Source: Pelagophyceae sp. CCMP2097 (Eukaryota > Sar > Pelagophyceae). From it: 64,000 nt of DNA. Made by a program: the position numbers and the translations under genes. A model generated the notes under the pieces. The model was not told the origin of the DNA, ran no database searches, and saw only the letters and a list, made by a program, of their open reading frames with translations. Where the stretch lies: the NCBI GenBank assembly GCA_026770575.1, contig MU657217.1, positions 187,622 to 251,621 of the forward strand, given 5' to 3'. This document shows positions 43,685-58,207 of this stretch, one piece after another; position 1 is the stretch's first letter, and each line of letters begins with the position of its first letter.

Positions 43685-45350
43685 TCAGCCCCTGCGTCGT
43701 GCCGTGCGCGCGCTCTTGGAGCGGTTGATGACGAGGACTTCGGTGGAGGAGAGGACTTCTTCGTCGTTATCCTGTCCTCCAAACACCAAGATCCGCGGCT
43801 CGTCCGATGCAATGTCCAGCCGCGTCGCCGCACAAGAGTAGCGCCCGACCTGCATCGTCGGGCCCGGCTCGAATTCCAAAACCGAGACGGCCAGCAGCTC
43901 CGTCGTGGAGAAAGTCGTGTCCGACGCGTCGTCGTTCCCACCTAGATGAGGCGTGAGTGCTTCCCAATGAGGACCCCCGACAAGGACGCAGTTGCGCGCC
44001 GACGATGAGGACGTGCTGGGCGTCGACCTGGACTGCGGCGCAGTAGGACCTCGCCGAGCTCATCGACGGTCCCGCGGTGAACGATTTCGTGCGAATGTCG
44101 AGGATCTCCGTCGACTTTAGCACCTCGGACTCTGAATTCAGCCCGCCGGCGACCATGACGCGGTGCTCGTCCAGCACGACGGCGGCGCAGCCCTCGCGCG
44201 GCGTGGCCATTGAGGGCCCGGGCGCGAACGTCATCGTGTCCAGGCTGAGGATCTCCGTGGTCGACAAGACCGAGTCGTCGTCGTCCGAGCCGCCGACGAC
44301 AAGGATCCGTCGCGCGTCCAGCGTGACAGCGGCGCACAGGTTGCGGCCCGTGCCCATGGTCGGCCCGGGCGTGAGCGTCAGAGTCAAAAGATGGAAGATC
44401 TCCGTCGTGCCTAAGCACGCCGCGTCGTCGAGGCCGCCCATGACGAGAATCCTGTCGGCGTCGATCTGGACGGCCCCGCAGCCCGACCGCCCCGTGAGCA
44501 TGCCCGGCCCGGCCGTAAAGGCCATGGTGGTCGTGTCGAGCACCTCCGTCGTGTTGGAGTCGTAGCCCGCCGCCGAGATGCCGCCGAAGAAGACGGCGCG
44601 CCCTCGAGCCGACACTGCGGCGAAGAAGAATCGGGGTGACCGCATCTCCGGCCCCGGTCGGAACGTCGCGTCGTCGGTCCAGGGCCGCGACCCGAAGACG
44701 GCGGCCTCGAGGCCGAAGAAGTCGAGCTCCATCATCATGGACTCTTGCGCGGCCTCTGACAAGGCGCGGATCCGCCGTTGCGTGTGCAACCCGTCGAGGT
44801 CGCGGAGGAAGTCGAGGATGAGGCGGAAGCGCTTGCCGTCGCGGTCGATGAAGATGCTGCCGTCGGCGGGGTCCGGCTGCTGCATGGCGTTGCAGCGGCC
44901 GAACATTAGAGCGAGCATGGAGTCATCGACTTTTGTGAGCACGGACCTTGAGGTCTCAAAGGCCACGCCGCCGACGTTCAACTTGACGACGCCGTCGGGC
45001 GGCGGCGTCGCAGCGCGCATGCGCGCCTTCTCCTCGTCCATCGCGGCGCGCTCGCGCGCGACTTCTGCGATCTTCTCCGCGAGCGTGGCCTTTTCCCTAA
45101 GCAACATCGCATCCACCTCCTTCAACATCGCCGCCCGGTCGCCCTGCAGCGCCCGCCGGTCGTCCGAGAGCACGGCCTACGGTTTTCGTTGACCCTTCTT
45201 CTTGACCGCTTCCAGACTGACGAAAAGGCGCACCATTTCCGCCTGGAAGGCGCGCTCCAATGCCGAGATGGCAGACGTGTGGGCCGTTGTCGTCCGCCTA
45301 ACCGTCTCAAACGCGGCGGTCAGGTTCCGAGAGAGCCGGGCCTCGGGCAT
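43685..45350 (-). CDS. BTB (T1)-kelch protein, copy A
   Basis: Exons 45350-45234, 45176-44000 and 43941-43685 sum to 1,551 nt (516 residues). The first intron has donor GTGCGC. The second needs a GC donor (GCGCGC) to keep the kelch motif intact (LIVG|GNDD); a GT donor ten bases further on would add four residues. The N-terminus is a coiled coil (EKATLAEKIAEVARERAAMD). A K+-channel-T1-type BTB fold follows (VVKLNVGGVAFETSRSVL, MFGR, FIDRDGKRFRLILDFLRD), then six kelch blades of the form ...PGP-M--R---AAV-LD--RILV-GG. Such proteins often act as Cullin-3 substrate adaptors. A paralogue in opposite orientation lies at 54548-56159. Confidence 0.78.
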
Positions 45351-47389: not shown

Positions 47390-49005
47390 ATGGTGACCAA
47401 GGCCGAGGGGCAGGCGCGCAAGAAGCGCATCGAGGGCCTCATGTTCGGCGCCGCGGAAGCCGCCCAAGCCGCGCGCTACGCCGCCGCGAGGCCGCAGCTC
47501 CGACCACAAAAGAGCGACGTCACCGGTGCCGGGATATTGGCCGCAATGCGCGCCGACAACGGAGGCGAGACCGCAAAGGCCGCGCGCCGAAGAGCCAGCG
47601 CCGAGCGAGCCACGTCGCTCCCGTGCGACCACGAGCGGCGTCCCTCTGGCGCGGTTGCGGGGGTCCCGTTTTGGCCGCTCCGGCTTTGGCGGGAAAGCCG
47701 TTGAAGCGACGCTCGCTCCTACAGAGGCCATCACCCCTCCTAAAGAGGATCCTACAGAGGCCATCACCCCTCCTAAAGAGGACCCCACGCCCTAGGCCAA
47801 AAGCGGAGCTGACGGCGCGGAGTGATAGCGTGAACGCGCGGAGTGATAGCGTGGCGGCTCTGAAGCGTGCTCTGGCGGAAGACCGCGAGGCCCTAGCCCA
47901 GTCCACCGCCAAACGCGGCATGGCGCACCCGCCGGCCGACTTTATGAGGAGCTCGTCGGGCGGCAAGCAGACGGCGCAGTCGCTGAACGGGACGAGCGTG
48001 GTACTTTTGGGAGCCTCGCGCAGCGGCAAGACACTCGCATGGGACCAGCGTCGGGGTCGGCATCGCAGCAATCACGGAGTGGCGGCGATCGAGAGAGGAT
48101 TGGCACCGGGGAAATACCCCGAAAATCGGTGATCAAGAGCTTTGTGCCTTTGCTTTGGACGTTGGACGCTCGCCTAACGCAGGTGACGCAGACGTTCTGC
48201 GGCGGCGTGGCGCAGCTGCGACCGGCGCCGACGGTGGGCGTCGAGCGGCACGACGTGGCGTCGTCGAGTGGCGACGTTCGAGTGTGGGACACCTCTGGAG
48301 ACGCCCGGTTCGACGACGCCGCGCTCGGTCTCCAACGGCGTCGAGCGTGTCGGCAAACGATCGGGAAACAGTGAAGGACTGCGCCGCAGGTATGTTACAG
48401 AGACCCGGAATGACCTAGGCTTGGTGCGCGGCGCGTCGGCCATTCTCGTCCTCTACGTCTTCGACGACGCCGCTTCCTTGGATTTCGCCATGGCGCGCCT
48501 CCGGCGCGCGCGCAGGGACTGCTGCGACACGGCCGCGGTGGCGCTGGTGGGCACGGCTTACACGCCGGGGAAAGAGGCGTATGCGTTTGATTCGGACGCG
48601 AAACTTTCCGTGAGGGCGGTAAAGTGCGCTTTCGACTGCAATGCGCGCCACTTCCACGTCGTCGCCAGCGACCGGGTTCAAGTCGACGCGCTCTTCGCGG
48701 ACGTGGTCGGGGAGGCTGCAGCGTGAGTCCGTTTTTAGACGTTTCAAGCGTCGCTTTCGACCGTCTGCGTCCGCACGCCGCGCTTCGAGGCGCGCCCTGT
48801 AGGAAGCGCGAGGCGAGCGAGCGAGCTTTCGCGGAGAAGCGCGCTCAGGACGCTGAGTTGGCCGTGCGTCGCCTTGCCCCGCGGTTCTTTTGGTCATTCC
48901 TTCTTCTCATCCCGAAAGTAGGCGTCGTCGAACGATACGGCGGCGGACTTGGAGGTCGTGTGCTACTTCCTCGCGCTGCTCTTCCTCCTCCTCGGGAGCG
49001 TCTGA
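47390..49005 (+). CDS. Rab-like small GTPase with N-terminal extension and C-terminal membrane anchor
   Basis: Six exons: 47390-47622, 47796-48036, 48183-48327, 48419-48722, 48803-48863 and 48922-49005. They sum to 1,068 nt (355 residues) with every phase agreeing. The N-terminal ~150 residues are Ala/Arg-rich and helical. The G domain has the P-loop LLGASRSGKT, a switch-I TVGVE, the G3 motif VRVWDTSGDARF, and RGASAILVLYVFDDAASLDF. The G4 position reads VALVGTAYTPGKE instead of NKxD, so guanine specificity is doubtful. The C-terminus has no prenyl cysteines. Instead a charged helix (EASERAFAEKRAQDAEL) leads to VVCYFLALLFLLLGSV, a tail anchor. Intron 2 uses a GC donor (GCATGG) if LVTQTFCGG follows the P-loop directly. 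Confidence 0.72.
47711..47790 (+). repeat. tandem repeat inside the first intron of the GTPase gene
   Basis: The unit tacagaggccatcacccctcctaaagaggatcc (about 33 bp) occurs twice in succession between 47718 and 47785, within the intron 47623-47795 whose acceptor is CCTAG. The repeat is in an open frame but outside the spliced reading frame. Confidence 0.7.
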
Positions 49006-54547: not shown

Positions 54548-56159
54548 ATGATCGCTCCGACGATGACGGATGCGCAGGCCGGCCTGATATCCGCCTTTGA
54601 GGCAGTCCGGCGCACGTCCACGGCGCACACCTTCGCCCTCGGTGCCCTCGAAAGAGCTTTTGACGCCGAGATGGTGCGCTCTTCTTTGACCCTTGCGGCT
54701 TGCGTCCGTCGGGAGCCTATAGCGCGCCTAGGCCGTCCTGGCGAACAACCGACGGGCGTTGCGCGCCAACCGCGAGGCTACGATTAAGGAATTGGACGAC
54801 AAGCTCGCACGCGGCGAGGCCAAGCTTGCCGAGGAGCGCGCGGCGGTGGCGCGCGACCGCGCCGACGTCGAGGACGAAAAGGCGCGCATCCGAGCGGCCA
54901 CGTCGCCCTGCAACGACGTCGTCAAGTTGAACGTGGGAGGCGTGGCCTTTGAGACTGCGCGGGCCGTGTTGACAAAAGTCGACGATAGTATGCTCGGCAG
55001 AATGTTCGGCCGGTACGACGCGATGCAGTACTCCGAGGACGGCCGCATGTTCATCGACCGCGACGGCGAGCGCTTCAGAATCATCCTCGACTTCCTCCGC
55101 GACTTGGACACGCCACGCACGCAAAAGACGATTCGCGCTCTATCAGAGGCCGCCCAGGAATCCATGAGGAAGGAGCTCGTCTTCTTTGGCCTCGAGCACG
55201 CCGTCTTCGGCGTGCGGCCCTGGACCGACGACGCCACCTTCCGCCCGGGGCCGGAGATGTGCTCGGCGCGCTCTTATTACGCCGCCGTGTCGGCCGGAGG
55301 GCGCGCAGTATTCTTCGGCGGCGTTTCGGTAGAGGGAGACAATTCCAACACGACGGAGGTGCTCGACACCAAGACGATGGCGTTTACGGACGGGCCGGAC
55401 TTGCTGACGCGGCGGTCGGGCTGCGCGGCGGTCCAGATCGACGCGGACAGGATACTCGTCTTGGGCGGCTTCGACGGCGCGTGCTTGAACACCACGGAGA
55501 TCTTCCACTTCTCGACGCTCCGGCTCACGCCCGGGCCGACTATGCGGACGGCCCGCAATTTGTGCGCCGCCGTCGCCCTCGACGCCAGATGGGTTTTAGT
55601 CATTGGCGGTTCGGACGACAGCGAATCGGCGCTGGCGAGCACCGAGATCCTCAACCTCGACGCCATGGCCTTTTCGCCGGGGCCCACCATCGCCACGCCG
55701 CGCAGCGGCTGCGCGGTCGTCGCGCTCGACGAGCACCGCATCATGGTCGTCGGCGGCCGCCACGATCAAACGGTGGGAGGGGGACGCTTGAACACGACAG
55801 AGGTCCTCGACAACCGGACCATGGTGTTCACGCCCGGCCCGACGATGAGTTCGGCGCGCTCGTACTGCGCGGCCGTGCCCGTCGACGCGCAGCACGTCCT
55901 CATCATCGGCGGCCGCGACGCGACGGGCAAGCGGCTGGCCACTACCGAGCTCTTTGACATTGCGGCCATGGCCTTCGAGCCGGGCCCGACGATGAAGATC
56001 GGTAGGCGCGCGTTTGCTGCGACGCGCTTGGACACGCCGGGCGAGCCGAAGATCCTCGTCATCGGTGGCCGCGGCGACGACGAGGAGGCGCTGCGCACGA
56101 CGGAGATGCTCGCCATCAACCGCGAACGCATCTCAAACACGCCGCGCCACCACCCCTGA
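54548..56159 (+). CDS. BTB (T1)-kelch protein, copy B
   Basis: Exons 54548-54673 and 54732-56159 (donor GTGCGC after GAGATG, acceptor CCTAG, phase 0) give 517 residues, one more than copy A at 43685-45350. The domains are the same: a helical start (AFEAVRRTSTAHTFALGALE), a coiled coil (EATIKELDDKLARGEAKL), the BTB T1 fold (VVKLNVGGVAFETARAVL, FIDRDGERFRIILDFLRD), and kelch blades (VFFGGVSVEGDN, RILVLGGFDG, VLVIGGSDDS, IMVVGGRHD, VLIIGGRDAT, ILVIGGRGDD). Intron 1 is at the identical codon in both copies, but copy B lacks the second intron of copy A. Likely a Cullin-3-type adaptor or scaffold; substrate unknown. Confidence 0.82.
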
Positions 56160-56746: not shown

Positions 56747-57076
56747 GTTCCAGAGCCGCGCCGTCTTGTCATAGCTCGCCGTCGCAACGCGCTTGCCGTC
56801 GGGCGAGAACGCGCAGCTCCGGACGGGGCTGGCGTGCCCCTTGAGGATTGCCGTCCCCTTCAAAATCCGGTCCGACCAGATGAGTTTGCGCACGGCCGGC
56901 GCCACGGCGCGCGCATTTCCAGCGACGCGCTTCGTCAGGAAGAGCGCGTCTGGCGTTGCCGCCAGCCGCAGGATGAGCGCGAGCAGGTCGCCCAGTTCGA
57001 GCACCTCGAGGACCGGCGCCGCGCCGCGCTCGACGGCTGGCCGCTTGACGCCTCGCGTGGCCTCGTTGACGTCCAT
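56747..57076 (-). pseudogene. Truncated WD40-family gene fragment
   Basis: ATG 57076 starts the same leader as the other copies (LEVLELGDLLALILRLAA...VRKLIWSDRILKG), then a single WD40 repeat ([20 protein letters not shown]...TARLWNV). After that the family similarity stops and the frame runs on into unrelated sequence to ~56642. The remaining six blades are missing. Either the gene was cut by a rearrangement, or it is a partial duplicate. Confidence 0.65.
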
Positions 57077-57156
57077 GGCCACCCAGCCGCGGGATGACGT
57101 CGACCTTATCTGCACGAAAAAAGGAAAGCAAGCGATTTTCCTTAATGAGTTTTTGA

Positions 57157-57217
57157 GGACCCGAAGGGTCCTTGCCGTTTATTCAACGTCAGTTTACGGC
57201 AAGGGCCCTTCGGGTCC
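57157..57217. repeat. inverted repeat, 22-bp arms
   Basis: The left arm 57157-57178 and right arm 57196-57217 are complementary with one mismatch (left ggacccgaagggtccttgcc, right ggcaagggcccttcgggtcc, inner base pairs not shown). The loop is 17 nt and T-rich. The left arm also contains the smaller palindrome ggacccgaagggtcc. A related ttcgggtcct lies at ~58052 beyond the gap. It could be a foldback element end or a strong hairpin terminator. Confidence 0.75.
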
Positions 57218-57248
57218 TTTGATTGAAGGATTACTTGGGGCAATTATG

Positions 57249-57296
57249 TCTGTCTGTCCGTCTGTCTGTCTGTCCGTCTGTCTGTCTGTCTATCGC
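57249..57296 (+). repeat. TCTG/TCCG microsatellite
   Basis: About 12 tandem 4-bp units (tctg with tccg variants), ending in tctatc. Confidence 0.85.
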
Positions 57297-57345
57297 CGGG
57301 TCCATCCGTGAGGTTCCACCTTTGGGAAGAAAAAAAAACAGCAAC

Positions 57346-57918
57346 TCGGCCGATTTAGCGATTGGTGGTTGATGCGATNNNNNNNNNNNNNNNNNNNNNN
57401 NNNNNNNNNNNNNNNNNNNNNNNNNNNNNNNNNNNNNNNNNNNNNNNNNNNNNNNNNNNNNNNNNNNNNNNNNNNNNNNNNNNNNNNNNNNNNNNNNNNN
57501 NNNNNNNNNNNNNNNNNNNNNNNNNNNNNNNNNNNNNNNNNNNNNNNNNNNNNNNNNNNNNNNNNNNNNNNNNNNNNNNNNNNNNNNNNNNNNNNNNNNN
57601 NNNNNNNNNNNNNNNNNNNNNNNNNNNNNNNNNNNNNNNNNNNNNNNNNNNNNNNNNNNNNNNNNNNNNNNNNNNNNNNNNNNNNNNNNNNNNNNNNNNN
57701 NNNNNNNNNNNNNNNNNNNNNNNNNNNNNNNNNNNNNNNNNNNNNNNNNNNNNNNNNNNNNNNNNNNNNNNNNNNNNNNNNNNNNNNNNNNNNNNNNNNN
57801 NNNNNNNNNNNNNNNNNNNNNNNNNNNNNNNNNNNNNNNNNNNNNNNNNNNNNNNNNNNNNNNNNNGGAATCATCATAGAAGAAGTTTTTGGTCACAGGT
57901 TCGAATCTGGTCGGCCGC
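57346..57918 (+). tRNA. tRNA or tRNA-derived element interrupted by the assembly gap
   Basis: The left flank has cggccga at 57347-57353, followed by tttagcgattggtggttgatgc, which resembles a Pol III A-box/D-arm. The right flank has ggttcgaatc at 57899-57908, a perfect box B / T-loop, followed by tcggccg at 57911-57917. The two 7-mers are exactly complementary, as an acceptor stem would be. A T-arm with one mismatch can be drawn. The middle, including the anticodon, lies in the N run. An A-rich tail (57919-57975) follows, so a tRNA-derived SINE is as likely as a tRNA gene. Confidence 0.4.
57379..57866. other. assembly gap (488 N)
   Basis: A run of N at 57379-57866. Flanks are repetitive: microsatellite and inverted repeat on the left, A/T-rich tail on the right. 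Confidence 0.99.
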
Positions 57919-58207
57919 AAAAAAAAGAAAAAAGAAATAGCTCAATAAGAAATAAAATAATAAAAATAAAGATAAGGAGAATTTGAAAGTTCAGTGATTA
58001 GTTAAATAATTTCAATTATTTACGTGGGCATTGCAATGGGATTTGGCTGTATCCTTCGGGTCCTCCGTGTGCCTCCGGCGCGCTCTTGTAATAAGACAAT
58101 TAAAATGATTTGATAAGGGTCATTTTGGAGCTCCTTTCAAATCTTTTAATTTCTACCGCAACGGGTGATCGGGCTGGTTTTGGAGACCGAAACGACCGGC
58201 CCGCACC
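57919..58207. other. AT-rich spacer upstream of CFAP100
   Basis: A-rich from 57919 to ~57985, then mixed sequence. No gene. It forms the 5' region of the CFAP100-like gene. Confidence 0.5.

Follow-up and report, generated by a model that had tools for sequence, protein, structure and literature searches.

A Rab-like small GTPase with a predicted C-terminal membrane anchor and degenerate G motifs in Pelagophyceae sp. CCMP2097

Introduction

How might a small GTPase act if it were held in a membrane by its own polypeptide chain? The question is raised by a gene of Pelagophyceae sp. CCMP2097, an ochrophyte alga reported from Arctic sea ice (PMC9756366). The gene lies in the window analysed here (64,000 nucleotides; contig MU657217.1, positions 187,622 to 251,621 of assembly GCA_026770575.1), to which all positions below refer unless a contig is named. 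An earlier note had read it, from the DNA letters, as a single Rab/Ras-like G domain closed by a hydrophobic C-terminus. We find the same plan in five full-length relatives, and the sequence evidence points, with a probability of about 0.6, to a permanently membrane-resident, non-cycling Rab-like protein that would serve as a standing receptor or scaffold.

Results

Structure of the gene

Joining the six exons of the (+) strand by script reproduced exactly the in-phase, 355-residue product that the earlier note had proposed, with a single terminal stop and the C-terminal end VVCYFLALLFLLLGSV (Table 1). The acceptor is AG in all five introns; the donor of intron 2 is GC (GCATGG at 48037) and that of the other four is GT. 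Sequence alone leaves the exon 1/exon 2 junction unsettled, with 87 frame-compatible GT-AG options; the NCBI protein described below shares the one used here, relative P0006 was aligned through SLPPK, and the relatives were aligned through the exon junctions. Intron 1 also holds a perfect tandem duplication of a 33-bp unit (window 47717-47782).

NCBI protein M885DRAFT_253513 (P0001, 341 residues, Pelagophyceae sp. CCMP2097) represents this gene, with an exon 4 that differs. Its junctions 1-2, 2-3, 3-4 and 5-6 are those given here and it ends in the same exon 5/6 sequence; removal of 48493-48614 (122 bp, GC...AG) and retention of intron 4 restore the frame and lead into the same tail. When the script was run with the NCBI exon structure, it reproduced these 341 residues letter for letter. 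In this variant the G domain is without its G4 and G5 portion; the variant is a faulty model or else a minor isoform. The expectation that gene finders would miss the gene was thus borne out, both by this exon 4 and by an Aureococcus model in which pieces of the gene are fused to an inositol monophosphatase.

Both doubtful junctions, 48722/48803 and 48863/48922, are crossed without a break by a JGI protein (P0002, 148 aa, longest contig 1225 bp) that is identical to the gene model from LVRGAS to the C-terminal end. The simplest reading of P0002 is the product of a spliced transcript; it may also be a spliced gene prediction from a genomic contig. One alternative is that the tail exons are an artefact of gene modelling and that the true product stops at the TGA at 48724-48726. 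The open frame does run on to that TGA, and such a splice variant could exist, but P0002 and P0001 speak against this account, as do the five full-length relatives with their matching tails, and we find it scarcely credible. Transcripts ending at this stop, named by the earlier note as contrary evidence, were not seen, P0002 running into the last two exons.

A family with a shared plan

Protein searches found 15 proteins, among them five full-length relatives: P0006 (339 aa), P0004 (372 aa), P0008 (347 aa), P0010 (334 aa) and P0012 (353 aa). These are 28-41% identical to the window protein over 303-336 aligned positions, and counts out of six below refer to them together with the window model. 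The other ten were left out, either as the same gene (P0001, with its different exon 4, and P0002, a part), as N-side pieces or chimeras (P0003, P0005, P0009), as pieces (P0011, P0014), as a chimera (P0013), as 99% identical to P0004 (P0007), or as an ordinary Rab (P0015). The last of these, from Ectocarpus, was matched at an expectation value (E) of 1.2e-3 and rejected as a relative since, with its NKVD and GGCCW tail, it is a Rab-like protein of the ordinary kind.

P0013, an Aureococcus protein named inositol-1-monophosphatase, consists of N- and C-terminal pieces of the GTPase family fused to an inositol monophosphatase model and is apparently, judging from its sequence, a chimeric gene model. 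Because it has the same N-terminal stretch as P0004 and nearly the same tail, P0004 is assigned to Aureococcus anophagefferens or a very near source. An ENA protein, P0005, is a near-copy of P0004 up to G4 and then continues into a U-box domain, a junction that is either a gene-model fusion or a real fusion. Taken together, the plan common to the six sequences, which include Aureococcus or close kin, identifies the locus as a member of a real gene family. A chance reading or a pseudogene was ruled out by the five relatives and their degree of identity to the window protein.

Single-protein searches of the genome, in which only the best candidates were scored, found no second copy; apart from the gene itself they gave one match at E 1.2 and three with E from 0.0019 to 0.13, two of the latter at Pfam Ras sites (C2, C23) and the third overlapping C133. 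The assembly searched comprises 66.2 Mb in 638 contigs and the CCMP2097 paper gives 85.8 Mb in 1716 scaffolds (PMC9756366), which indicates a different or partial version; the exact match of the NCBI protein is what ties the window to CCMP2097 or a conspecific. A viral origin was rejected after a scan of viral contigs gave nine pattern matches and no relative.

The G domain and the N-terminal region

The Rab/Ras-like character of the G domain, as first proposed, is upheld by a Pfam Ras match at 3.3e-12 in the 262-residue C-terminal part of the product; the NCBIfam small_GTP score is 17.9 bits, under the cut-off of 42.5 bits. The gene was absent among the 47 matches of an exon-by-exon Pfam Ras scan of the genome, which shows strong divergence of its G domain.

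Within this domain the P-loop, the switch Thr and DxxG are present. The P-loop (GxxxxGKT) and WDTSG, both reported as kept in the window protein, proved constant in all six sequences, as did the switch I PTxGVE with its invariant Thr. The position of Ras Gly13 is Arg or Lys in 6/6, and that of Ras Gln61 is Asp in 6/6. The Asp of NKxD provides guanine specificity and affinity, and the catalytic Gln serves hydrolysis. The reported replacement of NKxD holds for the whole family: the window protein has TAYT, and the relatives have TALF, STLG, TKLG, TKLG and TTIE. In the G5 region, P0004, P0007 and P0011 read ASDR, P0006, P0008 and P0010 read TDR, and P0012 reads RDA.

These motifs bear directly on whether the protein could be a working GTP/GDP switch that stays in the membrane by the same tail, guanine being read by other residues. 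Here, Thr/Lys (as in TKLG) and the Asp of the ASDR loop would read guanine, and hydrolysis would be completed either by the Asp that replaces Gln61 or by a partner protein. Such a switch would be consistent with the P-loop, switch I Thr and DxxG, invariant in 6/6, with the invariant Asp of the G5 region, and with TKLG in two relatives, which is one residue short of TKxD (compare TKLD of L007, a Rho-looking GTPase of the same genome, by eye). However, the NKxD Asp is missing in 6/6, the window protein with its TAYT included, and Gln61 is Asp throughout, and we regard a working switch, the chief competitor of the reading favoured below, as doubtful.

The long N-terminal region carries two further conserved stretches, N1 and N2, identified from alignments and pattern counts. 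N1 was found in five of the six sequences, P0006 as predicted starting after the N1 position, and reads RKASIEKLLF in P0003; the N1 pattern accordingly missed P0006, and the N2 pattern missed the window model and P0004. The counterpart of N2 in P0006 is helix 67-92 of its AlphaFold model. The earlier note was silent on these N-terminal motifs, as it was on the Asp at the catalytic Gln, the basic Ras-Gly13 position and the GC donor.

The C-terminal tail

The claim that a hydrophobic tail takes the place of prenyl cysteines extends to all six sequences, and insertion of this tail into a membrane is predicted from sequence. Each ends with a stretch of 14-18 residues free of charged residues, N, Q, H or P, and none has Cys in the last six residues, so no prenyl cysteine is available. 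The five full-length relatives all end in or just after this stretch and none in CC or CxC, an ending that the earlier note had held to be incompatible with its view. The best Kyte-Doolittle 15-mer is C-terminal in 6/6 (means 2.19-3.00), and the best 15-mer outside the tail scores lower in the window protein and in P0004. By hydropathy there is one predicted transmembrane segment near the C-terminus and none elsewhere. Cys-Tyr lies within the stretch in three of the six (window protein, P0006, P0004), and in the models of P0006 and P0004 the tail forms one helix with alpha5. The prediction of an anchor thus draws on hydropathy, conservation and structure models.

Loss of prenyl cysteines is not organism-wide, since other GTPases of the same genome end in cysteine motifs (e.g. 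...KKKGCC, ...PRGPCC, ...KKCCN, ...GKCVVC). Cys was present in the last four residues of 10 of the 15 genome frames with an NKxD-like G4; the pattern itself demanded NKxD-like letters, and this count indicates that ordinary GTPases with such tails exist and gives no rate.

In all six sequences the net charge of the flank is -1 to -5 on the N-terminal side of the stretch and 0 or -1 on its C-terminal side. Tail anchors of mitochondria, peroxisomes and plastids usually carry a net positive flank, and Toc34 is a tail-anchored protein that, with GIMAP, belongs to the AIG1 family. The anchor might sit in a mitochondrial, peroxisomal or plastid envelope membrane, making the protein an analogue of Miro or Toc34, a location that would be compatible with either a receptor or a switch. 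Stretches of 14-18 residues are compatible with such membranes, and precedents exist in the hydrophobic tail that anchors Miro to mitochondria (PMC4810086) and in Toc34, a GTP-regulated receptor of plastids (PMC4052903). Like Miro and Toc34/GIMAP, the window protein would combine a cytosolic G domain with a single C-terminal anchor. In contrast, the G domain of Miro is doubled and accompanied by EF hands, and Toc34/GIMAP are AIG1 proteins, whereas in Pfam the window protein had a single stretch with Ras/Roc matches, lacked an EF hand and gave nothing for AIG1 at E up to 1. As a net positive flank beside the stretch was seen in 0/6, we consider this location unlikely.

Affinity to Rabs and comparison with other GTPases

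A search with the family profile placed Rabs as the nearest solved structures: the best 60 of 216 PDB matches were Rab, Ypt or Sec4 entries, one of them labelled Rabphilin-3A. That IFT22 and Rheb are missing among the PDB matches listed is given no weight here. Rab12 (71.5 bits with the family profile), Ypt7, Rab22 and Rab23 were among the nearest by profile, and Rab5, Rab8 and Rab3 by fold. In AlphaFold modelling a Rab fold continues into one long tail helix. By eye, RF after G3 and VRGA resemble RabF3/F4 and PTVGVERHD departs from IGVDF of the RabF1-5 motifs. Profile and fold scores support a Rab-like affiliation. The family resembles Rabs in the fold of the G domain, the P-loop, WDTxG, the PTxGV switch I and RGA after G3; unlike Rabs, it has no prenyl cysteines, NKxD or catalytic Gln, and has a long N-terminal region with motifs of its own and a predicted transmembrane tail.

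IFT22/RABL5 has GKT, GDA[KR]F and a degenerate G4, and is not known to be prenylated or to have a membrane tail. The window protein shares the first four of these features, and the family profile matches IFT22 with 31.5 bits over 78 positions, as might be expected if the protein were a divergent IFT22/RABL5 or another Rab-like ciliary protein. However, the genome has a separate IFT22-like gene around C3:1120347 (LEIWDTGGSSLYESCWPAIMKDTSGV; against a human query, 62% identity across 26 residues and, in a piece with the P-loop, 63% across 19), Rab12 scores far above IFT22 with the family profile, and the membrane tail has no counterpart known from IFT22. The separate gene and the low family-profile score ruled out identity as the IFT22 of this genome, and the wider ciliary reading is very improbable. 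The IFT22-like gene (G000:C3:1120347-1120424) and an IFT81-like gene (G000:C78:57410-58032, CH domain matches) occur in the same genome, pointing to a flagellar toolkit.

Known GTPases offer partial parallels. One is Rheb-TM of the SAR clade, which is described as having four C-terminal transmembrane segments (PMC5869587): it too is a single-domain Ras-superfamily GTPase of SAR in which transmembrane segments replace the C-terminal prenyl motif. Rheb-TM has a Rheb G domain; the present protein has one hydrophobic stretch rather than four, a Rab-like WDTSG and a degenerate G4. Rheb-TM, in giving up prenylation for transmembrane segments, sets a precedent for a membrane-spanning small GTPase with a single G domain, and the argument from rarity must be softened: such an anchor is indeed rare, as the earlier note held, but not unique (PMC5869587). 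SR-beta and Arl10 have N-terminal anchors (PMC8358228); SR-beta is a small GTPase held permanently by a transmembrane segment, as is predicted for the present protein, in its case in the endoplasmic reticulum (ER) membrane, and differs in belonging to the ARF family and in the N-terminal position of its anchor (PMC8358228). EhRabX10, called a pseudoRab (PMC8514894), shares a Rab fold with degenerate G motifs; four of its G motifs are nonconserved and a membrane anchor is not mentioned in the abstract (PMC8514894), whereas in the present family G1-G3 are conserved except for the Gln.

In the titles and abstract openings of the literature searched, which covered few subscription journals, no description of this family was found, and PMC9133084 contains no mention of 253513, GTPase, flagell or Rab. 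The earlier suggestion of an undescribed GTPase class agrees with this null result and has it as its whole basis.

Genomic surroundings and coordinates

The gene is flanked by two BTB/POZ-Kelch-type genes, at 43767-45173 (-) and 54759-56159 (+), which are 68% identical over 402 residues (Pfam assignment made on the first copy) and form a locally duplicated pair. A dip in GC content at 56-58 kb (window 57000-58200) corresponds to a run of N, a gap or a withheld stretch, over 57400-57799; GC is also lower in the sequence next to this run.

Table 1. Features of the GTPase gene, in window positions
Feature	Position	Strand	Support or remark
Exon 1: ATG start, N-terminal region	47390..47622	+	Same exon in NCBI protein P0001
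N-terminal motif N1, RKKRIEGLMF ([RQ]K..IE.[LM][LM]F)	47417..47446	+	Also in P0004, P0008, P0010, P0012
Exon 2: last part of N-terminal region, then beta1 and P-loop; GC donor GCATGG follows	47796..48036	+	Same junctions in NCBI P0001; P0006 alignment through GASKSGKTLLTQTF
Second N-terminal stretch N2 (A....L..DR..L)	47857..47895	+	Invariant alignment columns A99, L104, D107, R108, L111
G1 P-loop GASRSGKT	48010..48033	+	G and GKT invariant in 6/6
Exon 3: switch I PTVGVE, G3 WDTSGDARF	48183..48327	+	Exon joining and NCBI model
G3/switch II WDTSGDARF, Asp for catalytic Gln	48285..48311	+	WDTSGD invariant in 6/6
Exon 4: beta4-alpha5 part of G domain	48419..48722	+	P0002 identical from LVRGAS on; NCBI model removes 48493-48614
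G4 position: TAYT, not NKxD	48553..48564	+	Six-sequence alignment
G5-region ASDR	48664..48675	+	Asp (D291) invariant in alignment
Exon 5: charged helix after alpha5	48803..48863	+	P0002 and P0001
Exon 6: end of charged helix, predicted membrane anchor, TGA stop	48922..49005	+	P0002 and P0001
Predicted C-terminal hydrophobic anchor VVCYFLALLFLLLGSV	48955..49002	+	Best Kyte-Doolittle 15-mer of protein, 2.67

Discussion

In the model that we favour, a standing receptor or scaffold, the C-terminal helix would be inserted post-translationally into an internal membrane. The ER is the likeliest candidate, because the anchor is short and hydrophobic, with a net acidic flank on the cytosolic side and no net positive charge beyond it; in an ochrophyte, the chloroplast ER is also possible. 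GDI, which lifts prenylated Rabs off membranes, would be unable to extract such a protein, and it would stay in place instead of cycling. Since the P-loop, switch I Thr and DxxG are intact, phosphate and Mg may still be held; guanine binding would be weak or unspecific without NKxD, and little hydrolysis would be expected without the Gln. The switch face and the conserved N-terminal motifs would recruit partners, so that the protein would act as a fixed platform rather than as a timed GTP switch. More tentatively, it is possible that the family comprises tail-anchored pseudo-Rabs, so far pelagophyte, that act as permanent receptors for docking at the ER or the chloroplast ER without a GDI cycle or guanine recognition, the N1 motif being partner-binding or self-inhibiting.

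Several observations weigh against a tail-anchored receptor. The hydrophobic stretch, at 14-18 residues, is short and could instead associate with the membrane as a monotopic or amphipathic helix, and a basic residue lies close before it in P0010 (Arg) and P0004 (Lys). Genome searches gave no Get3/ArsA match, with the limits that an intron-split gene may escape them and that one search had no positive control. AlphaFold modelling does not bear on nucleotide binding, and the confidence of the P0006 model drops behind G4, with a mean predicted local distance difference test (pLDDT) score of 59 for residues 231-240. Finally, the retained P-loop and switches argue for some persisting nucleotide role over a pure scaffold.

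Members of the family are present in CCMP2097 and in Aureococcus, a bloom-forming alga, or a source very close to it; those public models of the gene that were examined are broken. Rabs mark membranes reversibly by means of a lipid; in this Rab-like family the anchor would be built in, and the base-reading motif and the catalytic Gln are lost. It thereby raises the question of what role a Rab fold may play once cycling has become impossible.
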